NCBI RefSeq assembly: GCF_910592395.1
Contig: NC_088326.1
Span: 1,617,001-1,681,000, forward strand
Source of the DNA: Lineus longissimus
Taxonomy: Eukaryota; Nemertea; Pilidiophora; Heteronemertea; Lineidae
Direction: 5' to 3'
Length of the DNA: 64,000 nt
The position numbers and the translations under genes were made by a program. Within the stretch, counting starts at the first letter, position 1. Each line of letters begins with the position of its first letter. The notes under the pieces are model-generated. The model did no database searches and had not been told where the DNA came from. It was given only the letters and a program-made list of their open reading frames with translations. Positions 17,693 to 63,516 of the stretch are shown one piece after another.

Positions 17693-19043
17693 ATGCGAGC
17701 GATTGGGGTTGAACTACAGGATACCGCGCCGCGGGTTTCCTTTGATGGGGATATTGTCTCATACGAAACTTTTGGGATGTAGAGCTCACCGTACGTAGGC
17801 CTTTTTTAGCCCCCTTGCTAAAATAATCTAAAGATATATGTGCTGTTCCGTGGGTTAGGTGGACAGGTTTTTCAGTATTGCGGACGATTTGTCTGTTAGA
17901 GATAATTTCACAGAGTTTCACTGAGTTTCACTGGAGGTGTTGATGGAAGTCCATGATTTAAACTATTATAGTTACAGTGCTTTCTTGACAAAAACGAAAT
18001 CGGTGACGATGGCGGCAAAAACTACACCTCTGACTCAAAGTCGGGTATGGCAGTGTCGAGCAAGGCAAAAGTGACTGAGTCGAACATGACAGAGGTGAAG
18101 GAGTCTAACATGGGAGCGATGACCGAGCCGAACATGGCAGAGGTGACTAAAGGGATGCGTCACATGTCATACAATACAGGTAATTCTCCCAGTATACCGT
18201 CTTGTAACTGGGGCTGTGCACGGTCTCGTGGCGAAAATACGTATTATGGCCAGTGACTTGTCGTTTCCGTCAACTGATTAAAACCAATTCAGCCATGCAC
18301 AAAGTACGTAACACCCTTTCGTCCTGTGCACGCCTCTTTTAAGTTGCACGAAGACGGTATACCCGAGAATTGTCTGTTTAACTTTTGATGTAATTAGCAA
18401 ATGTCGCAATTTGTGCTTGCGGAGGGTTGAGGATGGTTGCGGTCAGTTGCGGTCGTATCCGCCGGTCAAAAAGGCGAGGTGTGCAATCCCAAGGACGGTT
18501 GTGACCGCAAGCAAACGCACCGAATCGCCGGCATATAATCGCAGCATTGTCGCCGAGATGTGGTCACCAAGACGTCTTTGATATTAACACAAAAATTCAA
18601 TCTTCTTTTTGTAGAGAATAAGGGCCGCAAATCGAGATCACAAAGTAACTGCGAGATTAGGCGACACCAAAACCGACAAGAAATGTTCCGAAGCAATCGA
18701 AACGAATACTAATACTCCTGTAACATGTGCTGCGGTTATGAATACGATTACCACGGCCACGAAAACAACTGCCGCTGCCACGAAAACAACTGCCGCTGCC
18801 ACGAAAACAACTGCCGCTGCCACGAAAACAACTGCCGCTGCCACGAAAACGAGTACAACGTCCCCGAAAACATTTGCTGCTGCCACTAAAAGTGCTACGA
18901 TCACGAAAGCGCCAACTACAACTTCCACAACTGGTGTTAAAAAGGATAAAGGTGATCCTTTCACCAACAACAACTTCACTATATTGGCCCCAGAAGACAC
19001 AGCCCCGCTGACAAAAAACGTGGCGCTCCCTCCACTCAAGTAG
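17693..19043 (+). CDS. Possible alternative 3' exons of the perilipin-like gene
   Basis: Three acceptors with open frames follow exon 10. 17693-17782 begins MRAIGVELQDTAPRV and stops at TAG. 17978-18179 starts in phase 0 (CFLDKNEIGDDGGKN) and contains repeats of the type ESNM-EVKESNM-EPNM. 18615-19043 in one frame is a Lys/Thr/Ala-rich tail ending LPPLK-stop, and in another frame stops at 18712. Exon 9 (phase 0) could splice to any of them, and internal GAG|GTGA donors in the middle exon would keep the Thr-rich tail in frame. The true transcript structure cannot be settled from sequence. An AATAAA lies near 19400. Confidence 0.4.
18759..18850 (+). repeat. 21-bp minisatellite encoding TKTTAAA
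   Basis: Four perfect copies and a partial fifth of ACGAAAACAACTGCCGCTGC-C (21 bp, seven codons) inside the open frame that ends at 19043. Because the period is a multiple of three, the length can vary without frameshift. Confidence 0.9.
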
Positions 19044-20952: not shown

Positions 20953-23900
20953 ATGGAGGGGTATGTCAATTCTAGTGGTGATGCGAAACATGCTGACCCC
21001 AAGGATGAAGCACCTGATTTTGATGCCCACAATACTGAAAAGCAACATATTGACGATAGCCACATAGGAGACATATCTGAAAGCCAAATTACTGCCCCCT
21101 TGGAGGGCATTGGCAAAATGAAACGTGGCTCACCATTACCGACTGATTCCCTGGACAGTGACGACCGGCATGATGAGGACAGTAAAGGCCCCAAGGACAA
21201 TAGTAGCCAACGAGGATTAATCAACCACTCGGATGATGACAGCCAGCAACAACTTGTTGACACCAAGAACAAAAACGAATCAGTACCGACTAAGTCCCAG
21301 GATAATTCTCGCCAACGAGTACTGATTGATCCACAGGAGCACACTTGCCAGCCTGAACCTGCTGACTACCTGGGTAATGGTATCCAGCTAGGAGCTGTTG
21401 ACACCCTGGGTAACGATACCCAGCCAGAACCTGATGACTCCGAAGTCAATAATACCTCACCAGGACCTGATGACCCCCAGGCCAGTGGCAGTGATGCTAA
21501 ACCTCCCCCACCACCATCCAAGCCTAAGCCAATCAAAGGTTGCGTCAAGCTCCCACCTCATTGGAAGATTGCTGTTGACGAGGACGGTGTGGTCTATTAT
21601 TATCACGGCATTACAGGGTAAGCGCGTTGGCCTTGATATTATGATAATTCCATCATGTCTGTAAGAGCTATCACCCATTAGAATACAGCAACTACAATTT
21701 GATCAGACATCATATCTGTATCTCTCAATAGTTGCAAAAGTACCCCACTAACACATTGCATTAGAGTACACCTTCTTGGTCTGGTGCATTAGTACAGTTT
21801 TGACATAGCGGTGGCCTCCTGCTGCAGCTAAGAATATCTATTTCATCATGGCTGATCATCATTGGTTTCTCAGATTGCATTTATCTTCTTTCTCTAACTT
21901 AAATTCCAGACTGACACAGTGGACTCCTCCAAAACTCCCCCCAAAGTCTTCAGCTGTACGTGTTTCAAAACTCATGCCAGGAGCCACAGCAGGCAAGTCG
22001 GATGTAACAGAGTCTTCAAAACCAGCAGCAAACCTGTTGTCCTCTGGTGCAAAGGGTGCAGCTTTCTTTAATACGCTTGGACTTGGGAAGAATGTAAGTT
22101 TGCTACTCCACAAACAACAGCTTTTTTTATCGTTAGCTGGTTGTTGAACTGTTGAGGGCTAAGTATCCTTTGCAAAGATTGTTTTGAACTGCTGCTAAAG
22201 TGAACCGCGAACAAGCGATATTTTTCACTTTCGAAAACAAGCAGGTTCAGGTGGGTTCTACAAAATCAACTTAGAGCTATCTGATTTCAATTTTCACGGA
22301 ACCGAACCTATGCTGTCTCCAAAAATTGTTGTATTCAATTATTGTTAAGTCTGGTCTCTCTCTATTCAGGTGCCGACTGGTACAGACGACGAGGCCCCAG
22401 TGATGAGGACGCGACAGGCGAAACGTAAGGTTCTGAGCCAATCACTTGAGGAGTCTGATAATGAAGATGAGGCAAATGCAAAGTTGTACTCGTCAATGTG
22501 GGAAGACCCAAAGGAGAATGAGTCCGAAATGGTGAAAAGCCCAACAACCCGTCCGCTTCCATATGAATGTGATATATGTTATAAAACATTCTCAAAGAGA
22601 AAAATGCTTATGAATCATATCAAGAAACACAAAAATCAGGAGAGTACTGCCAAGAGGCTACGCCTCAGCATTGCCAAGGACCAACTCAGTTGCGAATATT
22701 GTGAAAGGAAATTTACGTTTGAGAAAAGTTTCAAAAAGCATGTTGCATCTTGCGCAAGTGATAAGAAGCAGTACAAATGTGAGAACTGTGAGGAAATATT
22801 CTTGATTCTTGGGGACTATGAAAAACATGTTGTGACACATAAGGGTGAGCTGGAGTTTAAGTGTGAAAAGTGTCCACAATCCTTCACCTCTAGACATGAT
22901 TTCGAGGGGCATTTGTTGAGTCACATATCAGAGGTTTCAGCTCCTGGTCAAATGATGGACACAGGTACCAGTGACAATGTATTGGGCACTTTATGTACTG
23001 GTACCAATGGCAGTGTATTGGGCCCTACCGTTGCTGGTACCAGTGACAATGTATCGGGCGCTTCAGTAACTGACGTTGATGCTTCTAAAGACGAAAATGC
23101 TGGTATTGCATCTACTGGTACCGGCAGTGCATCTACCTCGCCCGGTAAGGTTAAGAAGGAGTACATTTGTCAATATTGTTTACGGAAATTCAAACTTGGG
23201 GCAAGCTTTCAAAAGCATTTAGTGTCTCACACTGCAGCTGGTCGGACATCATTCAGGTGTGTGAAATGCTTTAAGTACTTCTTGTCGAAGAATGATCATG
23301 ATGTGCATTTTCTGACGCATGAAAACGATTCAAAAACTGAAGACGTTGCGACAAGTTCACATGATAAGGAATACAGATGTGAATACTGTGACTTGACCTT
23401 TAAGCATTCCGAGACGAAGAAATTCGAAAAACATTTAGCGTCTCACACCTTAAGAAGTACTTTCAAGTGTAGGAAATGTAACGTGTCTTTCAAAAAGAAA
23501 GTTGAGTTGGACGCTCATATAGGAACACACCCGGAGGTGAGGTGTTTGAAGAAAGGGCCCAAGCCAGACATCCTGAAGTGTGAAGAGTGTGGTGAAACAT
23601 GCATTGGTCGCGCATCATTTAGAAAACATCAAATTATTCATACTACTCTAATGATATGCAAATTCTGTGACAAAAGATTCAAGGTCAAGGACACATATAT
23701 CCGCCATTTGGAGTTGCACGCCGCGCCGAAACCTCATAAATGCAATCTCTGTAACGAGTCATTTCTGGTGAAGAGACAAATTAAGTTGCATAAGGAGAGG
23801 GTTCATAATATGAAGTCGAGGAAAATGCACAAGTGCTACCATTGTAAAAAACTTTTCAAATATGACCGCGATTTGCGCTACCATCTCAAAATGGTCGAAA

Positions 23901-25093
23901 AACCAGAGAAGTGTAACGAATGCACTGAATCATTCGGATATCCTGCGGAGTTGAAAGAGCACAAGAGCGCTGTCCATTTGAAGATTACTGAGAAAAAGGA
24001 ACAGTGTTTGATATGCCAGGAGAGGTTCGTTCATTTGGACGCGTTGATGGTGCACAAACGTTCCCATGACGACCCTCGGAAGCCGTATCGTTGCGACGAA
24101 GACGACTGCTATAAAAATTTCGCGTCAGAGAAACTTTTAGAAACGCATAAACGCACTCACACTGGTGAAAAGCCATTTAAATGTCCGCATTGCGAAAAAG
24201 CATTTATCGATGCATATCGGTTGAAATCGCACGAAGTTGTCCATCAAATCGAGCGACCAATCAGCTGTGAGCATTGTGAGAAACGATTCCGTACAAAATA
24301 TGAGTTGAAAAGTCACGCAGTCATTCATTCTGGTACGAAAGCATTCACTTGCTCGTTCTGTGGGAAATCCTTCTTCAGGATTGGGAATTTGCGACTTCAT
24401 GAACAAACGCACACGGGCGAGAAAAAGTTCGATTGCAAGTACTGCGGGCGATGTTTCCGTAAGAGTGGGGTACGACGCACGCATGAACTTATTCATACTG
24501 GCGAGAAACCATTTCTTTGTAAATTCTGTGGCAAGGCTTTCCGTCATAAAGGAAACTGGAAGGATCACGAGACAATTCATACCGGCGAAAAAGGATATCA
24601 TTGCGATATCTGCGGTGATAATTTCCGCTACTGGAGCAACTTCTACACTCATAAGAGTACCCACGAGGGTGGGAAAGTCAAGGTCGGTAGGAATCTCAAG
24701 GTTGGTGGGAATTTCAAAGCCGGTGGGAATAGGCGAAAGAAGCCAAGTCATTCGGCGGGTCCTAACACAGAGTTTGTAGGAGAGCCTGAGGGAGGTGGCA
24801 ACGTGTCTTCAAATTCAATGGACGAACATCCTGGGCAGATTCCGCAAGGTGGGGATGTTAACCCCTGGGGTACCAATCGTGATGCAGAATTTGGTCATGG
24901 TGCGCATGGTGGACATGGTATGCCTAATAATGTTGGGGAGGATATTTGGACTCCGGCAATGGCACCGGGGCAGTACCCACCAGACTACTGCCCCCCAGAG
25001 AGTGTTCTGTCAACGATCGCTCCATGGTCAATTGCAATCTTGGATCATAGTGGTCGTCCGAGACAGCAAGTGCAATTCCCGCCTAGGTTTTGA
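20953..25093 (+). CDS. WW domain - multi C2H2 zinc-finger protein
   Basis: Three coding exons in phase: 20953-21617, 21910-22093, 22370-25093 (TGA), about 1190 residues. Residues 1-200 are acidic, polar and disordered, ending in poly-Pro. A WW domain spans the first intron: LPPHWKIAVDEDG, then VYYYHGITG, then LTQWTPPKLP; the first W, the YYY block and the second W-x-P-P are present. It resembles the SETD2 WW domain. The last exon encodes about 21 C2H2 fingers, from YECDICYKTF to YHCDICGDNF, several degenerate (finger 2 ends in Cys; finger 12 lacks a proper second His pair) and the last six joined by TGEK-type linkers. Between fingers 4 and 5 is a short Gly/Thr/Ser repeat. It is probably a nuclear DNA-binding protein with a proline-ligand module. 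The start ATG follows an acceptor, so an upstream 5' UTR or coding exon may exist. No orthologue recognised. Confidence 0.9.
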
Positions 25094-26755: not shown

Positions 26756-29700
26756 TCTTGGGAACAATCTCTCCCAAAGATGCGGGAATCACCTTGACCC
26801 ATGAACACGTCTGCATGCAGTTTTATTGTGCCCTCACACCTGCTCCTCCTCACATGAAGGACAAAGCCAGTGGTGATCTTTCGTTCAAGATGGGCAACCT
26901 TGGCTTGATTCGTCAGTACCCGTAAGTCTCTTGCCTTATAATTTCTCGGTCTGTATTGTCTTGTCCTGTCTTCTTATAATGTCTGTATGTGTTGTCTCTG
27001 TTGCTGTGGAGCCTTTATTATGTGACAGCTTCATCATCAGGCATGCACTAACTGTTGTCACACCAGCTATGGCGAGTTTTCCTGAAAGTGCTACAGTCAG
27101 CTTCAGACTTAAAAGCATTGGGGATTGCAGGCTTTTAGGGATGCCAGAATTGTCTGACAGTGGTCATCGAAGTTTGGGATAAGATGGGGAAAATGTTTAA
27201 ACAAGGAAGCGAGAGCCAATCACAAATCATCCTGGTAGTATAATGTATACTCCACCTCTTGATATTTCAAATGAGTGAAAAAATCTGAATCTCAGGATGG
27301 TCACAAATAGGTCTTTGCCTTTGTTTACTTTTCGTTTCGGCTTTGAATGAATCCATGTCACTTTTCCAGATACGCCAACCTGGAAAATCTCAAGTTATTT
27401 GAAGAGAAAGAAGCTGTTCTCAGCGAGATGAAGTATTTCAAGGTACAGTGGAACCTCCCTTTTAGCGGACACCTCCCTATTAAGGACACTGCATTTACTC
27501 CCAACCTTGAAATTTAGATTCACTCGATTTGAAAGCGTTCTAATCCCTATGGATTTCAAGTCTCAGCAAAAGTGGTGGTACCTAATAATTCACTGGTTGT
27601 CTGTTTATATCATAATATCTGTCTTAATTCTAGGAAAATGGTGGCGCCACCATTGTTGAGAATACTACAATCGGTATCGACCGTGACATGAAGTTTATGC
27701 AGGAGCTCTCAAGGAAAACGGGAGTTAATATTGTCTCCGGGACAGGTTAGTTTTTGAATTTGCTCTTGTTTGCTGTGGCAAGTTTTCAGATTTTGGAATC
27801 TTGCTTTCACCTTTGCTTATTTTTGGGTCGAAAGAACAGTCTAATGTGACATGGATGTACCCCTTTTTAGGCCAAGGGATCTAGGAGACTAACGTTTGAT
27901 CCCATCTGACTCATGTGACTGGCCTTCTTCACTTAGTTGAATCAGAGTGGTACTAATGCAAATTGGAGGCTCAAAGTAAATGCGCTACAAATAAATTGTG
28001 TGTCAATGTTTTACGCCATAAGGTGCATTTTACAAAAGGCCTACTTTTACCAGTAGCAGGCCTTTGTATTAACAGATGAACCTCAACTCATAAACATGTC
28101 ATTCTCTTGTACTTGCAGGCTATTACGTTGGAGCTTCACAGCAGGCTAGTGTTGCATCGATGACGATAGAACAGATGAGCGAAGTGATGATGTCTGATCT
28201 GACTCAGGGAGCTGATGGGACAGATATCAAATGTGGTGTCATTGGAGAAATCGGATGCACCTGGCCTCTTGAAGGTAGAGAACGGTGTTCTCCACAAGGA
28301 CATTTCTCAGGACATCCCACCCAACTTTGGCAGCTTACCACCCTACCTTGGAAGCAGCCACCCTACCTTGCTCTAGGATTTTAAAAAAGGGGGTTTCTAT
28401 TGGGCCAGCCAACCTTAACTTGCTGGCCACCCTACCTTTTCTTGCACACTTCCAAAACTTCTTGAATCAAGGTACCACCCTGTGGAGAACTCTGGATGAA
28501 TATCAAATAACAAATCTTAGAGGAGTGTGATGCACACTACATACAACCCCTCAATTTCACCAGTCACAAAAGATCGGACAGGTCTATTGTTAAAAATGTT
28601 TCCGCAATTTGTACAATTGGGTACCATGGTACAGGTCCAGTGGCTCCTCAGCTGATCTCTCCCAGTTACAGATTTTCGTTTCTTTCTAGCCTCGGAGATC
28701 AAATGTCTACAAGGTGCTGCTGCCATCCAGGAAGCGATTGGATGCCCAGTTATCATACATCCTGGCAGAAACCCCAAAGCACCGTTTGAAATTTTGAGAA
28801 TTGTCCAAGAAGCTGGCGGAGATGTGTCCAAGACAGTCATGTCACATCTAGACCGTAAGTGTTGTAATGTCAGTCAAGAGGTTCCCTAGCTCAAGGGTTA
28901 TCCTGCTGGTCTACCACACAGTAGAGCGTGAAATCAAATCTGGGTAGGATTTGCCAGTTTGGGTCTGTGTCTGCAACAGCACTGCCCGTGAGGACGTTCT
29001 GGATAAAGAAGACCATGGGTGATATGAATAAAGACGAGCAAATGCTTTTATCTAAAACTCCATGTACATTTACACTAGGCCTTTCTGTACAAAATTGAAG
29101 TAAAAGCATTTGCTAGTCTTTATTCATATCACCCCATGTTATACTTATCAGTGAACACAACAGCGATGTTGTTTTTTATATATATTCAGTATGAATTCAC
29201 ACAATTGATTCAAATTCAGGGTCAATTTCAAATATATCGAACAGAGTAGGCCTTTTTATTAATGAACAACTCATTTTTCTGATTTTAGGTTCCATCCATG
29301 ACTACGGGGAGTTGGAAGAATTTGCAAAGATGGGAAGTTACTGCGAGTATGACCTGTTTGGATTGGAAGCGTCGCATTACCAGAAAAACTTGGCCATTGA
29401 CATGCCAAGTGATGCAGAGAGAATCAATCGTATCAAGCATCTCATCAAACAGGGGTATGAAGACAAGATTGTGATAGCTCATGATATTCATACCAAACAT
29501 AGGCTGGTAAGTTGGTGTGCCCTTAATAGTTATCAAGCAAGTGCCTCCTCCCCTCCCCCTGCCATCTCCCCCTCCATCCCAATACTGAGTGATAGCTCAT
29601 TCAGACCAAACATAGGCTTGTATGTCAGTGTGCTCTTATAGATTAAGTGGCAACACTCTGGTCGCCTATCTGAAGCTGATACGTGGGAACATCACAGAGT

Positions 29701-31784: not shown

Positions 31785-34700
31785 CTAGTAGATCTTCATC
31801 GAGGTCTCGTACAGCATGGCCAAGTCCTCCTCTGACTGTGGCCGCGGTGATAGAGCTGTGATCCTCGTCTGAAAGGACAGAAAACAGTTATGAAACATAG
31901 CAATATTCCATCTCATGACCTTGCTCACATGAGCATTTAGTTTGAGTATTCTTATCCCGACCTCCACCATAAATGTTCTCTGTGGTGCCTCGTGCCTAAA
32001 CAGAGCACAAGACAAGCATGATCCTGATAAAAACACAGGGGCAGATCAAGGTGCTGAAAAAAAGAGGGGGGTCGTGCACAGCATATCTCATCAAAAAGTG
32101 TTCCAAAATTTCATGGTAAATTTCAACGATTTTCAAGAACATGGGCCCCCCTTGGATCCGCGCCTCAAATAAATCTCAGTTTATATGACATACCTGTGGA
32201 AGTGTGCCCTTGACTAGCTGCGGGATATCGGCGGTGGTGAACCCGACCACATTCAAACCATCTTCGACCTTCATCTCCTGCATAATCTCTCTCATTCGTT
32301 CAGACAGCACAAGACCGGCGTCAGCTAACTTCACATTAGTCACATCAACACCTGCAAGATGAGATATGTTTTTCAATAGAATAGCTGCGTAACTGCATCC
32401 AACACCTGCAAGATGAGCCATGTCTTTCAATAGAATAGCTGCGTAACTGCATCCAACACCTGCAAGATGAGACATGTCTTTCAATAGAATAGCTGCGTAA
32501 CTGCATCCAACACCTGCAAGATGAGACATGTCTTTCAATAGAATAGCTGCGTAACTGCATCCAACACCTGCAAGATGAGACATGTTTTTCAATAGAATAG
32601 CTGCGTAACTGCATCAAACACCTGCAAGATGAGACATGTCTTTCAATAGAATAGCTGCGTAACTGCATCCAACACCTGCAAGATGAGACATGTCTTTCAA
32701 TAGAATAGCTGCGTAACTGCATCCAACACCTGCAAGATGAGACATGTCTTTCAATAGAATAGCTGCGTAACTGCATCCAACACCTGCAAGATGAGACATG
32801 TCTTTCAATAGAATAGCTGCGTAACTGCATCCAACACCTGCAAGATGAGACATGTCTTTCAATAGAATAGCTGCGTAACTGCATCCAACACCTGCAAGAT
32901 GAGACATGTCTTTCAATAGAATAGCTGCGTAACTGCATCCAACACCTGCAAGATGAGACATGTCTTTCAATAGAATAGCTGCATAACTGCATCCAACACC
33001 TGCAAGATGAGACATGTCTTTCAATAGAATAGCTGCGTAACTGCATCCAACACCTGCAAGATGAGACATGTCTTTCAATAGAATAGCTGCGTAACTGCGT
33101 CCTTACGTGACTTCCAACACAGACTGCCATTCCACCTACTCCAGGTGCTAAGCAGAACCGGGAGCCATAAAGTTAATGACTTCTGAGAAATCTTGACGTT
33201 AAACTCACCTAAGATTTTGGCAGCTTCAAGATGCCTTTCTGGACAAGAAGGACCGGTGAACTTGAAGACAGACGGAGCGGTCAGGACGACAGACAGACCA
33301 TGAGGCTGGATAAGAGAGAACAAAATAAAGAGACCCAACTTCAAAGAACATGGATATCAAATCATTTTAACCACACGTTTTTTTTGGTTTTACTGATGGA
33401 AGCTAATTGTTCGGTGACACATATCAGCGGAGAATGCTTACAATAATTGGATGATCCTTGGTATAATCATCAGGTTGATAGGTCCGCACACCTCCAGCGA
33501 TGGCATACGACAAACCATGGCTGAAAATGGAGGGAAGTATGTTGAAATTAAAGTAAACAAGCACCACAATGTAATATAATCTGTCCGACGTTTTGGTATA
33601 TTGAACCTTCTACTGGGAATGAACAGCAGGTACCTGTGAATTGCTTTAAGTACGATCATAACAATAGCGCTCAGTTCGCAGTCGCGCTGCGTGGCTTTGT
33701 TTACAAAACATTACTACTGATTGGCTGGAGAAAAGGTTGTGACCAGAAAATGGAGGGAAGGTCAAGGTCATCATGGTGTAAGAGCATGTTGTGTGGTGAC
33801 TGAGAAGTAAATGTGATGTTGTTGCAGTTTGTATATACAATTGAAACTTTACAATGTTTGGTTGGAATACTTTACAGGAAGGGGGACCATTCACCAACAT
33901 TAGATATAGACACTAACCACAGATGACACCCGGCGTTCCCAAACCCTATACCAGCAAATGCAGAAGCAAGATGCATAGCGGACCTAGCCTCCATATCCGA
34001 CTGGTCATATACAGCCCTGAAATTAAACAAAGAGTAGGGCGCTAACAACATAGAGGGCGCTTCTGATATTTCTCTTACCATAAATGTACTCCTGCATTTC
34101 CGAAACCGATTCCGGCAAATGCGCTTGCTAGATGCATCTGTGATCGGGCCTCCATGTCGGATTGATCAAACACGGACCTGAAATCAATGTGGTTAATACA
34201 CAAACAATAATTAACTTTAAAAACAAGACATTGATCATTTCTGTGGATATAAAGACAATTGAAAACACTAGTTTGATTGATTATTACCAACTGCAATGAT
34301 GAATCTCCCCATGTGAAACTACAAGTCAAGGTTGGTGTCACAAATTTGATATGTGATATTTGTGATAATTCTTGAGAAGTGTTCTATTTCTTGGTCATCC
34401 ATCCACACGCTAACCACTCTTAATGTTGCAAGGGGCTGAGTATGTCAGATCGTACCTTTTGAAATACTTTGCAACGACTCTGAGTGCGTGATTGGACCAG
34501 ACATCGCTGATGGGGTTACTTCCTTGGTATGCTGGTCGGAATTTGGGGTTCGTTGGCCGTGGGCTTCTGTCCAGGTATGGAAGAGCGGTGTAGGACTCGA
34601 GGGCATGGCTGCAATGTTGGGGAGATTGATATTTAAGTAATTCAGAGATTAATAACATGTACTGCAAATCCTCATTGACAATATCAAGATTTTTTACACT

Positions 34701-37420
34701 GATAGTGAGAACTTGTCACTTGAGTTTCAATAGGATAGTTCAGGTTTGCAATGAAATGCTTGATATCTAGATCCGCGGTACTGTCAGCTTCATTTCACTA
34801 TAGTTCTCTCGATTTGCTCAGGATTTTTTGAGCAGCTTTTCCAACTGCACTGTTGATATGTAGGGTAATCTTCTTGACAGAATTCTAATGAACTGGGCTC
34901 TGGCGGAGCAAGAGCGTCAACATCTTACCAAAGAACGTCGAAACCGCTGTATGCAGCGACTCGCTCAGGCATGTGCAGGGTGTGGAGAGGGTCAACGATC
35001 CCAAGTGTCGGTCGTATGGCACGGTTAGCAATTCCTGTTTTAGCACCAAGGGGAATGTAGTCAAAGACGGCAACGCCAGTGGTTTCACTACCAGTTCCTG
35101 AGGTTGTTGGCACTGAGAAGTCGTAAAACATATGATTATTTGATAAGGCCAGTTGAGATTGAAAACTTGATTCTCGTCCCAGCCCAGCGCCAATTTTTGC
35201 AACTGCCCTGAGATTTTATGTCACATTTTGCCACTTTATAATATTTTACAAGAGACCACAAATGTGGAGCCCCTGTAGACAGCATTTCCATAATCATGGC
35301 TTAGGGACTTTTTTCATCCTAGTGTGTGTTGTAGTTGGGACATAATGTCCTTAGGTCGTGTACAGATGTTGCTATTTTATGAAACATTACAGGAATACAA
35401 CAGCCTTGCGACATACTCACCAGCAATCAAGGGCTTTAATTCGTGCTCTACAGGGAGACCCTTCCCAATAGGAGCGTTGACAAAGTCTAAGAATTCCGCG
35501 TCAGGTTTTGTTGCATAGAGATTTGCAGCTTTACATGTGTCTATGACAGAACCACCGCCCACCGCCAGATACGCGTCAAAGTTACCAGCACGGGCAAACT
35601 CTATGGCAGACTTGAAACTGAAAATATTGAGATATTTAATGATATTATTCATATTATGTTTCTTACAGACAATCCACTCTTGGTGTTCATAATCGTGAGG
35701 AGCTTCATTTTCACAATTTTAATTTGTCAAATTACTAAATTTCTTTCAGTCTTTCCACGTTCTTAAGTTGACTTTCATCAATTTGAAACTTACCTGACGT
35801 CAGTGGGCTCCACGCGTACTTTATCAAACAGTTGATAGTTGACGCCATTTTGTTCCAGGGACGCAATTGCAACTTTAACAGGTGGGAGATTGACTAGTTT
35901 GGAATCTGTGAAGAGTGCAACCTTCTTTGCCTTCATGTTAATGAAGTCCATGCCGACTTCTTGGGTGACGCCTTCACCATATCTGATATTCGAGCACGCC
36001 ATCTGTAGGACAAAATCAGAGTTATATTGAGACAATCTAAGCCTCAAATATGCAAAGAAACAAACAAGTGTTGGGCTTGTAGACAAACTAGATGTTTTAC
36101 CTCTAGATGATCTTACCTCAAAAGCATATTCTCTGTTGTCACTAGAGCTGCTTTTGACCTTGAGGACTGGAATAGAACCAGAAAAAATCATGTATTTCAA
36201 ACCATACTATTCCGTTTTAATAGCAAAACAATAAGCTTGAAAAAAGTTGTAAGCAATTCAATGAAACAACCAACTGCTATGCGACCACACTTATTTTATG
36301 CCTTGTTAAAATATGCATTATCCAAGGAGGGTTAATAACCTACGTTTTGAACTTTAAACCAAGCAGACAATATCCAATATAAGACAAACAATCTCATAAA
36401 CTGATAAAGATAAGATATGGTGCAGTAGAATTCAAATTTCATGCCCACAATTTTCTGATTCACGGCACTATACACAGACACGGATACAGCATGTCCACAC
36501 AATACGATGATGCCTGACCCCAGAAGATAGTTTTGCTCTTGTAATCTGCAGTTGTTTGTAATTATAAATGCATTAAGCATTTTACCTGGAGTAGCCCGGG
36601 GATCCATCTGAGCATGAGCGGGACATCTGCATCTGGAAGAAAAAAATCCTACTTAACAGAGTCGGAGTCTAATCAAAGTTGTGACAATGGGTGATATGAA
36701 TAAAGACTAGCAAATGCTTTTATCTAAAACTCCATGTACATTTACACTAGGCCTTCCTGTACAAAACCGGAGTAAAAGCATTTGCTAGTCTTTATTCATA
36801 TCACCCAATGACACATAAGTGTGACAATACTCTCTGTCAAATAGGGGTCTCAATAGGGGTCTCTCACATCTCACAGTAGGTCGAAATGATTCACGTTTGT
36901 ATGAGGGATATATTTCGTGCTATGTCTGACATGACCAAGCGCCCATACTGTGTATACAAGTCACTTGAAGATGGCCAAATTAGCCCCTCTTGTCCTCCCT
37001 GTAGTACCCCTTTAAATTGACAAAATTATCCATGCAACACTACCAGCATGGCCATGGGCCTATTATCAAATCACAGCTTATCTTCCATTAGTACGCCTGA
37101 TTACATGGGATTTATACACTACAATTCATACGAAGGCCTACACACTGTGTACTAGGCCTATATCACTATGTACAAATCATTGACATTGTGTCATATTGTG
37201 TACAAAATGTACAGGAGAGATAAGATGTGGACTTCAGACTCATTTTTCATCCGCTGTTTGTGCGCAATGGGCGCGATGACAACCCCCGAACTGACATTTA
37301 ACCTGGAAAGTTTTGCAAGATGATACTTCTGAAATGTTGATTACGTTAGATCACTTACGTTGTAGCAGATATTGCCCGCATAAGTCCCCGAACCGTCTCT
37401 CTTGTGCTGCGAATCGCCAT
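31785..37420 (-). CDS. ADHFE1: Hydroxyacid-oxoacid transhydrogenase, mitochondrial
   Basis: Iron-dependent alcohol dehydrogenase family; oxidises 4-hydroxybutyrate to succinic semialdehyde while reducing 2-oxoglutarate to D-2-hydroxyglutarate. Exons in translation order: 37420-37359, 36632-36586, 36166-36117, 36002-35794, 35617-35421, 35112-34929, 34608-34456, one of 34177-34079 or 34016-33918, 33520-33442, 33305-33209, 32351-32194, 31868-31785 (TAG). All phases agree; about 472 residues against 467 in human. Diagnostic blocks: [78 protein letters not shown], the Fe-ADH signature [14 protein letters not shown], and the C terminus [21 protein letters not shown] split across my reading. The N-terminal exon ([17 protein letters not shown]) is Arg-rich and free of acids near the start, as for a mitochondrial presequence. 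The gene carries duplicated exons and a splice-junction minisatellite. Confidence 0.96.
32350..33100 (-). repeat. 54-bp minisatellite spanning an ADHFE1 splice acceptor
   Basis: Fourteen copies of a 54-bp unit, their ACCTGCAAGATGAG landmarks at 32350 + 54n up to 33052, with very few substitutions. On the minus strand each unit reads ...CATGTCTCATCTTGCAG|GTGTTGG..., a complete 3' splice site plus the first exon bases; the genuine acceptor of exon 32351-32194 is the last copy. In exon phase the unit translates as [18 protein letters not shown] (18 residues). Copies 1-5 are open into the exon. Copy 6 has C to A at 32616, making TGA at 32616-32614. Confidence 0.95.
33918..34016 (-). other. ADHFE1: ADHFE1 duplicated exon, form A
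   Basis: 99-bp exon with acceptor TTTCAG and donor GTTAGTG, starting with one base and ending with two bases of split codons. Encodes [14 protein letters not shown] then [18 protein letters not shown]. It directly precedes the exon carrying the metal-site His. It differs from form B at 4 residues (A/S, Y/F, A/Q, C/V) and at 21 synonymous codons of 32. Confidence 0.85.
34079..34177 (-). other. ADHFE1: ADHFE1 duplicated exon, form B
   Basis: 99-bp exon with acceptor TTTCAG and donor GTAAGAG, same phases as form A and 62 bp upstream of it in transcription order. Encodes [14 protein letters not shown] then [18 protein letters not shown], the version closer to the vertebrate sequence (NAGVHLCHG). 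A 62-bp spacer is probably too short for efficient joining of B to A, so the pair is likely mutually exclusive. Confidence 0.87.
36689..36806. mobile_element. 118-bp palindromic MITE, copy 2 (ADHFE1 intron 1)
   Basis: Same length and sequence as 29017-29134 apart from a few substitutions, flanked by the 3-bp duplication AAT (36686-36688, 36807-36809). Non-autonomous and recently active, judging by the near identity of the two copies. Confidence 0.85.
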
Positions 37421-56400: not shown

Positions 56401-59071
56401 TTCTCTCAATACAATGTTGTGGGTGCGGAAATGAGAAGTAAGAATTATCATTTGACCTGTCTGAAAAAAATTTCTTTCATTCTTTCCGAAAATCTTGTGG
56501 GTTTATCAGCTGCCCCCTTCCCCTCCCTCTCCCGAGCTGTGGTAAAATCATTGAGCTCAATAACAACAACTCCACCACTAACCTGCATAACGAACTCCCT
56601 TCTCCTCGGCTGCCCTCGCTCTTCAGCCAGCGTATAAATCGGATCCTTCTCCTTCTTCGCTTGCTGGATCTGTATCAGTCGACTAATCGGATTAATCCCG
56701 AGACCGTAATCTGGACACGCCTTTTGCATCTTGATCAAATTACGGTTCTTCTTCTTGTTGACTGGATTCTTCGGTTTGACCTTGACACTTGTGGCAACCA
56801 TGCTGGGTAATGGTGCTAATTTGCGTAATTCGTCCAACATGGCTTTTGCAGCGCGTTTCTTTGAGATTTTCTTGCCGTTGCCTTCACCCTTCGTCTCGGC
56901 GATGTCCCCAACCGTGCAACGGGTGACGTAGGAACGCATGTGCGGTTGGCCCGACTCACTGATCACCTGTGAAAGAAAGGAAAGAGGAGTTGAAAAGAAG
57001 TGGTCAAAATGTCGGAGACCAATACATGATGTAACACTGTAAACCTGAATGAAAGAAAATTGTAGCAAAACTCGTTCTTATGGACACAAACTACTGTGGC
57101 ACTTACCTCAAAATCGACTGGTACGCCTCTCTTGATTCCTATCTCGTGCACAAGACTGATCTCTGACTTGAGATCGTCAGGATGGTTCTCAGCTTCTCCA
57201 CCATCCGCAACTGAAACAAGCAAGACAATCACATAGAAATACTCAAGAATTCTCTTCCCCACATCATGTGTAACAGAGATTCTCTTATCCTAAGACAGGG
57301 ATTATACAAGTAAAATACAAACACAAAAGTGCTGACTTACCTTCAATGGGCTTAGCTGTATCTTGATTGGGTAGAGGGAGGTTACCGAGAACTTTGAGAG
57401 CTTTCTCGGCAGCACAGTGCCTTGCTGCCTGGCGGCTATGGCCCTCCCCAATGAACTCACGCTGCCCAACTTTCAGGGAGACGTAGAAGATCTTCGGCAC
57501 CCGAGGGTAGTGGTATCTGAAGTTACACAACGATAGAAGCTTTTATTGAAGTGTGTTCAACTGGGCAGCCAGTCCCACTCATCCCACAGGCAAGCTGCCC
57601 AGAACCCAGCGGTCTATCTATGACTATCTGCCATATAGGAATCCAAGACAGGTCGTAGGAGGCAATGGACTTGTCAGCTATAGGTCTCACTCCCGCTTTA
57701 CCTGTGTTTCCCACTAGTGCCAATGAATGCCTACCTCTGATTGTACATGCCCCGGTAGTCATAATTAGCTTGTGGATAGAAATGAGGCCTCTGTGGCTCT
57801 ATAGGTGCGTAAATCGGACGCTCACATCTCTTCATAGCCAGGGCGTTTAGTCGTACTGTTGGTGTGATGTTGTTGTCCATATCTGAGTATGTATCCGCTG
57901 AAAGAAAATTCAATTTAATTCAAATGGATCTTATCCTGGAGTTTCTGTTCAGACGCGTTGGCGGAAGACCTATTTGGGATGGTTTGAAATTGTAAGGAAT
58001 CACCACAGACTCTGTCATGAGTTTTCACCATGACAGGGGTTATAATGCCAGGGAACATTGTCTGCTTTACAGAATGTGATCAGGATACATGCCTCCAAAA
58101 GCCAATTCTCAGTCCAAGAATGTCCTTGACGGAGGAGTTCAGCCTCTACTATATTTATGGGGCACAAATGCCAGCTTTTGAGATCAAAATTATTTCAACC
58201 TGATGGATTGAAGAACTGAGAACTAAAACTTCACACGTACTAACTTCAAACCAACGGATTCGTGCAGTTTCAGTTCTCAGTGCTTCAATTCTAAACATAC
58301 GGTACCTTGTTTGTATTCAGCACTGTCATGTATCATGCTGGCTCCCTCACGTTCTGAGTAAAGATATCTATACCCACCCCCGTGGACCGGCATGATCTTG
58401 CGTGGGCGTGGCGGAGGGTGTTTAAACTGCGTCTTCTCCAATGCGATGCCAGCAGCTGAGTGTTGCGCCTTCTTGATACTTGGACCCTTGGCAGAATATT
58501 CTTCTTCGCCAAGTTTCAATTTGACGAAGAAGATTTTCTTGTGGGCGGGTCCCTGTTCATCGACCAAGGTGTACTGGTGTTGAATCTGTTGGGGAGAAAA
58601 ACAGATTCTTATGACCAATGAATACTATCGAGGCTCTCCACTTTGCCATGCATCACTATCAGTCACATAAAGTTCGCCAGTTTGACCCAAGTTCCTACTT
58701 ATAACCCCCCTTTAACATTCGGTATTTTTGTTATATAGAATATTTACCTTATTATACCTAGCTAGCTCATTTATCAGACACATGGGGGTTTTCTCTTTTG
58801 TGTTTGCCAATAATGACCCATCGCCACTCTCATGGTCAGCAGAGGGGGCTGTCGCATTCCCGTTAAATGATGGCTGGTTGTCAATCTTTCCTGCCATCAT
58901 TCCTGACAAACCGGCAGCGCCACCTGGTTTCAGTACAGGAGACACTGTCGCTGGTGCCATCTGGGGATTGGGATTGTAAACAACGGCTCCGACAACCATG
59001 CCTTTGTTTCCGCCATGTTGTTGTTGTTGTTGTTGGCCTTGGGTCATTCCTCCTCCTCGAATATGGGACAT
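53429..59071 (-). CDS. STAU2: Staufen double-stranded RNA-binding protein
   Basis: RNA-transport protein; binds structured mRNAs and links them to motors and decay factors. Exons in translation order: 59071-58748, 58585-58306, 57897-57735, 57516-57341, 57210-57107, 56966-56583, 56304-56143, 55941-55746, 55273-55137, 54907-54711, 53486-53429 (TAA); about 726 residues, phases consistent. dsRBD1 begins [15 protein letters not shown] and ends [14 protein letters not shown]. dsRBD2 is [14 protein letters not shown]...[18 protein letters not shown]. dsRBD3 is [20 protein letters not shown]...[12 protein letters not shown]. dsRBD4 starts [18 protein letters not shown] and ends [14 protein letters not shown]. 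dsRBD5-like: [20 protein letters not shown]. Phrases such as [14 protein letters not shown] and [10 protein letters not shown] are closest to vertebrate STAU2, but invertebrates usually have one STAU gene. The ATG directly follows an acceptor, so a 5' UTR exon lies upstream. A short poly-Gln is near the N terminus. Confidence 0.95.
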
Positions 59072-61343: not shown

Positions 61344-62844
61344 ATGTCTGCAATGGCAAAAAATAGAATCAAGAGTTCATGGACGCCACTCACCAACGAT
61401 GAACAGAATAACAAGGTAATTTTTGGCGTATTTTTTTCTGAAAAAGTGCTCCAAAAATGTACATCATCAATAATAATGAATAGCCGCTGAATAGGGCCTA
61501 GAATATAGCCTGCTAATGCACTGCAGCACTGCTGTTGACTGTTGTGTACAGTGAAGGCCTCCACTGTTCTTGCTTATAGTCTGTAGATAGCAGTACTGCC
61601 AGTACCATTGTGATTCGGGCAGTGTTATAGGCCCAGCCGCGTCCCTAGCGTCCAGACTGCTCATTGACTTGCAAGTTTTGGCACAATAATATATAGACAA
61701 TGGTGGAATGCTGTTGGCCTTTGGTCCTGAATGTGAGCGAGAGGTCGTAGGTTTGAATCGGTTACAACAGCAGTGATGACTGATCTGAATCTGATCGCAC
61801 ACACCCACGACGTCCCCATGTTCATGCAATACATAACATAGCCCACTGTCACTACAATAGGCCTATTCCAATTGTATTTGTACTGTAGTGCTCTAGTCCA
61901 ACCAATGTTCCATTCTCTTTCATTTCTAGCTTTTTGAAGAAAGAAGAACTTTAATTGGAAAATGGGTAAGAAAACTACTGTAGAACCACCCTAAATTGCG
62001 TACACCTATGCCAGGCAGACACCTCCACACTGTGAACAATAGACATGTCTGTTCAGTCCCAATTAAGACTACCTATATAATTTGTGATTATGGTTTGAAG
62101 TTGTTCGTAATATGAGTATTATAAAGAGGCACTGAATTTTGGGAAAACCTTGTGTGCATTCTTCAATACCGGTAAGTATGACTTGGATGCTGAGTGAAAG
62201 ACCCGAAGAAAGGAACTTAGACAATTTATCTCTCTTCCAGTTCGACAAGTGGAGTGACAACCAGCGTAAACAAATAATCGAGGACCTAATCCTGAGGTGC
62301 AAAGTAAAGCAGCTCGAATTCGCCGCTGAAATCCTGAAGACCAAAGTGCCGGTCCATCGCGATGACTTCACACGAGAATTACCGAGGGTCATCACTTTAT
62401 ACATCCTTTCATTTCTGGATCCACGCAGTTTGTGTCGATGTGCCCAGGTGAGATTTAGAGTCATCTGTATTTTGAACCATGGTTACATTGACCAATTGAT
62501 CCACTTGACCAAGTTCCTTGCACCAAATATCAACCACTCATACACTCGTGTTACTCGATTTTGATTACTAGACTTGTGAATGGTCTACTATTCTTCATTA
62601 TTTACAAAGTATGGTATGGGGCAGAGTCACCAGGATGGTGATGTTTGTGCAATAACTTCTTGATTTAACATTCTTCTAGGTTTGTTGGAACTGGAAGCAC
62701 TTGAGTGAAGCCGACCAGATCTGGATGCCAAAATCGATTCGCCTCGGCTGGTATTTGACCTTTGACCCCAGTCCTCATGAGATTGGCATTTGGAAGAGAA
62801 ATTACATTGAAAATGTCAACCTGTTGAACTTTCTGGCTCCAAAG
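61344..62844 (+). CDS. FBXO16: F-box only protein 16, 5' exons (3' partial)
   Basis: Substrate-recognition subunit of an SCF-type ubiquitin ligase. Exons in phase 0: 61344-61415, 61930-61965, 62241-62447, 62680-62844. Reads MSAMAKNRIKSSWTPLTND, then LFEERRTLIGKW, then FDKWSDNQRKQIIEDLILRC, the F-box LPRVITLYILSFLDPRSL with CRCAQVCWNWKHLSEADQIW, then LGWYLTFDPSPHEIGIWKRN. This matches vertebrate FBXO16 order and exon style (STWTPL, FEERRALLGKW, LPRVLSLYIFSFLDPRSLCR). The C-terminal exons lie beyond or were not recognised in 62845-64000, where a donor GTGAGT at 62845 opens an intron. Confidence 0.93.
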
Positions 62845-63255
62845 GTGAGTTTTGAAACGTTTGAAAGACGTCAAAGTTTTTTTATGGAATAAAGTCATAG
62901 TTCAAGGGTCAAATTACTTTTGTTTTGATAACTGACTGAATGCATGTACCAATTAAGCAATAATCAATGTAACAAGTATGTTTAACTCAAAAGTATTTAT
63001 GGATGCTGTTTTTTTCAGCTGATAAATCCATACTTGGCGCTAATGATAATCTTCCGCTAATTTCTAATCTGCATGTTTTCTCCTAACCCATTCTATTCTC
63101 TAACTGCACACTAGGAGACGCCACGCATGACTGCGCGGAGTTGCACAAGTTTGGACACATATAGATACAGCGAATACGGCGACGTAGGTTAACAAAGGTC
63201 ATCTTAACAACTAACACTGTAAAATAGTCACATAACACTAACAAGTAACATTTGT

Positions 63256-63397
63256 GTTGTATTTGCACAGGTTACAAACGTAATAAGTCCTGAATTTGCC
63301 TTCTAACGTCCGGATCCTTTATTCTATGTTGTATTTGCACAGGTTACAAACGTAATAAGTCCTGAATTTGCCTTCTAACGTCCGGATCCTTTATTCT
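63256..63397. repeat. 71-bp direct duplication
   Basis: TGTTGTATTTGCACAGGTTA...CCTTTATTCTA occurs twice in tandem (63256 and 63327) without visible differences, at the outer edge of the large inverted repeat. Confidence 0.9.
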
Positions 63398-63516
63398 AAC
63401 ACTGCTTCACAAAATTATACACACCAAAGTCATAATTGATAAAATAGTTCGTCGGGATGACGATTCGTGCACGTGATTATAAAATACTCGGGAGACTGGA
63501 ATAACTCTCTATCGCT

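Follow-up and report, generated by a model that had tools for sequence, protein, structure and literature searches.

The stretch of DNA considered here, referred to throughout as the window, comprises 64,000 nucleotides of the nemertean Lineus longissimus, and it contains a gene that resembles animal ADHFE1, an alcohol dehydrogenase of the iron type. Judging from its reading frame and splice signals, the gene occupies 31785..36166 on the minus strand and has 11 exons, two of which are alternatives of one exon; the same reading found neither the start codon nor the 5'-most exon or exons. Its translation exceeds the cut-offs for both the N-terminal and the C-terminal domain of iron-type alcohol dehydrogenases (PF00465, 135.7 bits; PF25137, 101 bits), and it matches 30 distinct sequences of solved structures with E values up to 1e-10, the best of them an NAD-dependent methanol dehydrogenase. 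None of the 15 NCBIfam models among the matches listed reaches its cut-off. As for the name ADHFE1, which belongs to the animal hydroxyacid-oxoacid transhydrogenase, it is given tentatively, for the resemblance to the human sequence.

This gene also contains a duplicated exon of 99 nt, on the minus strand, whose copies A (34177-34079) and B (34016-33918) are separated by 62 nt. The two differ at 34 of 99 bases; among the 32 codons compared, the difference is silent in 21 and alters the residue in 4, which suggests that selection has maintained the pair, probably as purifying selection. They share a phase, so that joining both stays in frame, and the 62-nt gap suggests mutual exclusion by steric hindrance. 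Exons A and B are perhaps a mutually exclusive pair, and if RNA confirms it, of the gene's two candidate forms of alternative splicing this may be the more functional one. For ADHFE1 and mutually exclusive exons together, the open-licence literature lists only a mouse Leydig-cell study.

Other features of the window can be listed briefly. On the plus strand there are a C2H2 zinc-finger frame of 914 codons recognized by Pfam (22349-25090), Pfam matches to the phosphotriesterase family (29195-29638) and to the F-box (62136-62561), and a 21-bp in-frame repeat (18756-18891) within an open frame (18615-19040) that has no Pfam match at E 0.01. On the minus strand, two frames match the dsRNA-binding motif in Pfam (56451-57077 and 58280-58624); we take them to be Staufen-like.

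Anatomy of the array

The array lies in one intron of the ADHFE1-like gene. This intron, of 857 nt, separates an upstream exon (33305-33209), placed by frame and splice signals and ending in AAKIL plus the first base of a G codon, from a downstream exon of 158 nt (32351-32194, donor GTATGT), placed by frame and homology prediction. Its 5' part, 33103..33208, begins with the donor GTGAGT and is free of repeats of the array; about 750 of the 857 nt belong to a minisatellite that covers the 3' end of the intron and extends 6 nt into the next exon. Tandem Repeats Finder (TRF) describes this array, on the minus strand at 32346-33102, as 14.0 copies of 54 bp with 98% matches and 0% indels, in agreement with the first-pass annotation to within a few bases.

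Copy by copy, the unit consists of the 6 nt of the exon start (GTGTTG) and 48 nt of the intron end, with the consensus GTGTTGGATGCAGTTACGCAGCTATTCTATTGAAAGACATGTCTCATCTTGCAG. If the units are numbered from the exon, unit k closes with acceptor k at window position 32352+54(k-1), and the units, of 54 nt each, extend from unit 1 at 32405-32352 to unit 14 at 33107-33054. All 14 end in CTCATCTTGCAG, which is followed by GTGTTG in 13 cases and by GTGTTT in one (unit 6). Thus CAG/GT, with the slash at the junction, stands at every unit end, and the splice signals AG/GT are repeated along the array: the earlier description of 14 near-identical acceptors in a row, in a unit that holds both the acceptor and the first exon bases, is borne out. 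The repeat is far beyond chance, since a 30-mer taken from the junction finds 13 matches with up to 3 mismatches, versus none in any of 100 shuffles.

Nine of the 14 units are exact copies of the consensus. Unit 1 (32352..32405), the exon-proximal one, reads CTTGCAG/GTGTTG at its end, an acceptor taken as authentic, and has two changes of its own, G36A and G41A; copy 2 has T42G, copy 5 has G6T and G36A, and copy 12 has C17T. Unit 14 (33054..33107) forms the 5' border of the array; it opens with bases of the flanking intron (CGTAAGGACGCAG) and has six differences from the consensus. The picture is that of a homogenised interior with diverged border copies (1, 2, and 14), and the interior copies 5 and 12 differ as well.

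Could such an array be a product of assembly, with few units in the animal that were multiplied on the way to the published sequence? Precedents come from the lancelet, in which tandem repeats over exon-intron boundaries are called mirages: in PGBD5, two assemblies disagree on the copy number both of a 60-bp unit (2 or 7) and of a 108-bp unit (3 or 6) (PMC3902484), and for one globin mirage the assembly in the draft genome is reported to be aberrant (PMC3087553). Here, however, copies 1, 2, 5, 12, and 14 have their own variants at fixed places, so that several distinct copies are likely, and an artefact of this kind appears very improbable.

A search for junction-spanning arrays elsewhere covered, of the 22 TRF rows in the window, the DNA around the ADHFE1-like array and two other regions. 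One of these holds a 22-bp array of 12 copies (2452-2714). An acceptor-like TTTCAG follows it (2738-2743), with its last base 29 nt beyond the end of the array. The acceptor-like TTGTACAG recurs in many of the units; the array stops before the junction, and the exon beyond it is putative. The other is a perfect duplication of 72 bp (two copies, 63255-63398, plus strand) that contains TTTGCACAG/GTTAC and to which no gene could be tied; a CT run at 63505 lies in the same region.

Reading frame and predicted products of the acceptors

Which of the 14 acceptors gives the ancestral protein? The product of acceptor 1 shows no gap at the join in five of five printed alignments, all with near-identical chains of lactaldehyde reductase that are hardly independent of each other, and none in three of three printed alignments with two methanol dehydrogenases and a propanediol dehydrogenase. 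Given this ungapped fit to solved iron-type alcohol dehydrogenases, the exon-proximal acceptor is taken to give the ancestral length. The ADH_Fe_C domain scores 39.6 bits without an insert, 31.4 bits with one unit, and 30.8 bits with two; the last two values are still above the cut-off of 27, so that longer products are conceivable. Any such insertion had been imagined between two structured parts of the enzyme; this does not hold, because a single PF25137 match spans the junction, which therefore lies inside the C-terminal domain.

A period of 54 keeps the frame, and the unit is open in the phase of the exon. Consequently, acceptors 2-5 are open into it, and their use would add 18, 36, 54, or 72 residues. 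Beyond them, an in-frame TGA at 32616-32614 lies in unit 5 (32568..32621), between acceptors 6 and 5, and acceptors 6-14, nine of the 14, all run into it. Transcripts from these nine would hold a premature stop and probably decay, as the textbook rule predicts for a stop that precedes the last exon join by a wide margin. The kept frame, the open acceptors 2-5 with their 18 to 72 residues, and the position of the TGA had been given by the first-pass annotation, and the copy table agrees with them. With such a period, RNA products of different acceptors would differ in steps of 54 nt, a ladder from which the choice of acceptor could be deduced.

The emphasis formerly placed on the frame deserves less weight. 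That the frame is open is real; that it is open is not beyond chance, because in any given frame 42% of random 54-mers drawn from the window (20,000 draws) are open, and the array unit itself is open in two of three frames. Moreover, one unit carries a stop. The copies 1-13 present six differences, of which four change a residue, one makes the stop, and one is silent; among all possible single changes of the unit, 38 of 162 would be silent. G36A, found in both copies 1 and 5, counts for two of the six and may be one event. A coding role of the units, considered as a candidate, is unsupported by the share of open 54-mers or by the five non-silent differences out of six, and their reading frame is probably without meaning: the numbers are small, and nothing in them points to selection for coding.

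These features bear on a first alternative, namely that the upstream acceptors are substantially used, and that copy number and the position of the unit with TGA set the enzyme output of each allele as a dosage switch would. Nine of 14 acceptors would then lead to a stop, four to longer enzymes, and one to the normal enzyme. The anatomy of frame and stop fits this idea, as does the near equality of the acceptors, and human ABCA7 offers a partial precedent: its intron 18 VNTR, made of 25-bp units, begins at the exon 18 donor, one unit can be retained, and array length goes with lower expression and more skipping of exon 19 (PMC5954066). Yet the retention of one unit, 2 ± 1%, is itself unchanged with array length in ABCA7 (PMC5954066), and other mirages are reported to splice regularly: RT-PCR was taken to show this for the globins (PMC3087553), and a second lancelet paper likewise reports that splicing is not disturbed (PMC3902484). 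The copy differences, only six, also lack a sign of selection on coding. We consider this alternative unlikely. Should the array act as a heritable and highly mutable splice rheostat, in which copy number and the place of the TGA unit set the shares of normal, lengthened (by 18-72 residues), and destroyed transcripts, the dose of the enzyme would differ among alleles, and even among cells; on the present evidence, this is a distinctly unlikely outcome.

Choice among the acceptors

Fourteen near-identical acceptors in one intron amount to a natural competition experiment on the choice of the 3' splice site. Simple proximity to the donor favours upstream acceptors in general, and here the decoys are nearer the donor and about equally pyrimidine-rich, so that this rule would favour them. 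The last 12 nt are common to all 14 acceptors. Their pyrimidine content over -20 to -5 is 0.56-0.62 in every case, at the low end of the range of 0.56-0.88 found for the ten other acceptors of the gene.

One difference concerns the distance from the acceptor back to the previous AG: 18 nt in 12 of the copies, but 33 nt in copies 1 and 5. The AG at -18 could weaken the decoys if the branch point were located upstream of it. However, the missing AG does not single out copy 1, because copy 5 is without it too and would escape the weakening; furthermore, the best branch-point-like A found by eye, in TTGA, is about 21 nt from the acceptor, so close that the effect may be nil.

Might the RNA hide the decoys? 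Local folding gives this idea no support. Acceptor 1 has its last 12 nt unpaired with a probability of 0.002, versus 0-0.006 for the others, which is no advantage, and over the last 6 nt its value of 0.013 falls below those of all 13 others (0.019-0.06). Stretches of 1, 2, and 4 units fold slightly more weakly than 100 shuffles of each (z of +0.5 to +0.7).

Another possibility is that a wrong choice is corrected afterward: a first join to an upstream acceptor leaves GTGTTG as a donor, which is then respliced to a later acceptor. The array offers the signals for such recursive splicing, because GT directly follows all 14 acceptors and units 1-13 all read GT...AG, whereas unit 14 starts with the flank. 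But GTGTTG is a weak donor, with 4.2 bits, or 2.6 after the wrong join, against 5.6-12.6 for the ten donors of the gene, all scored with a human matrix, and 9% and 17%, respectively, of all GTs on the strand score as well as these two values. An intron of 54 nt is, in addition, very short. Correction by resplicing is therefore highly improbable.

Splicing would most likely proceed mainly at the exon-proximal acceptor. Our main guess as to the reason is that each decoy is followed by just six bases of exon and lacks the exon body; the AG at -18, which 12 of the 14 copies have and copy 1 lacks, may add to the preference. If acceptors 2-5 were used now and then, the result would be in-frame insertions of 18-72 residues inside the C-terminal domain.

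Origin and known relatives

How might such an array have arisen? A tandem duplication of 48 intron bases and 6 exon bases, across the 3' splice junction of the ADHFE1-like gene, would be the founding event; by joining the exon GTGTTG to the intron GA(C/T)GCAG, it would account for the unit. Unequal exchange or slippage may then have expanded the array to 14 copies and homogenised it. As the earlier annotation had argued, gain or loss of whole units is by construction silent for the normal exon, which stays unchanged behind an intact acceptor. With its last copy joined to an intact exon at any copy number, the array would persist because it is nearly neutral. Overall, it is likely to be a minisatellite of the mirage type that grew by duplication, is close to neutral, and leaves the proximal acceptor mainly in use.

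The literature on comparable systems is mostly that of the lancelet. Mirages are described there in Adh3, through citation, and in the globins BflGb6 and BflGb9 (PMC3087553), with troponin C mentioned as a further case (PMC3902484); the unit size for Adh3 is given in these later papers as 10-72 bp (PMC3087553, PMC3902484). The amphioxus Adh locus, which had been offered as the parallel, was the right kind of system, and the kind is wider than Adh3. For amphioxus, the open-licence literature yielded no report on ADHFE1. According to one proposal, repeats of this sort can give rise to new introns (PMC3087553). Introns of VCBP3 contain exon copies with splice sites (PMC2632668), and a huntingtin paper mentions tandem repeats in connection with assembly (PMC2206037).

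The array looks like a further member of the mirage kind, in another gene, and it adds one more to the genes known to carry junction-spanning repeats. As in the lancelet, its unit spans an exon-intron boundary, the AG/GT signals are repeated, which holds for many of the mirages there, and the interior is homogenised while the edges have diverged; the last trait is described for BflGb6, which has haplotypes of 6 and 3 units (PMC3087553). Unlike those reported for lancelet mirages, its units have only six exon bases each, and they reach 14 copies, compared with 6 and 3 for BflGb6 and up to 7 for PGBD5. A further difference is that the period is divisible by three and the units are mostly open.

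Two other systems share part of this design. The ABCA7 VNTR is likewise an array at a splice junction, with a unit that begins with the donor GT; however, it lies on the donor side, its 25-bp unit shifts the frame when retained, and it is associated with disease, whereas the ADHFE1-like array is on the acceptor side. Finally, as with NAGNAG tandem acceptors, several acceptors compete at one exon, but those are 3 nt apart, while here there are 14, spaced by 54 nt, and each has its own upstream context.
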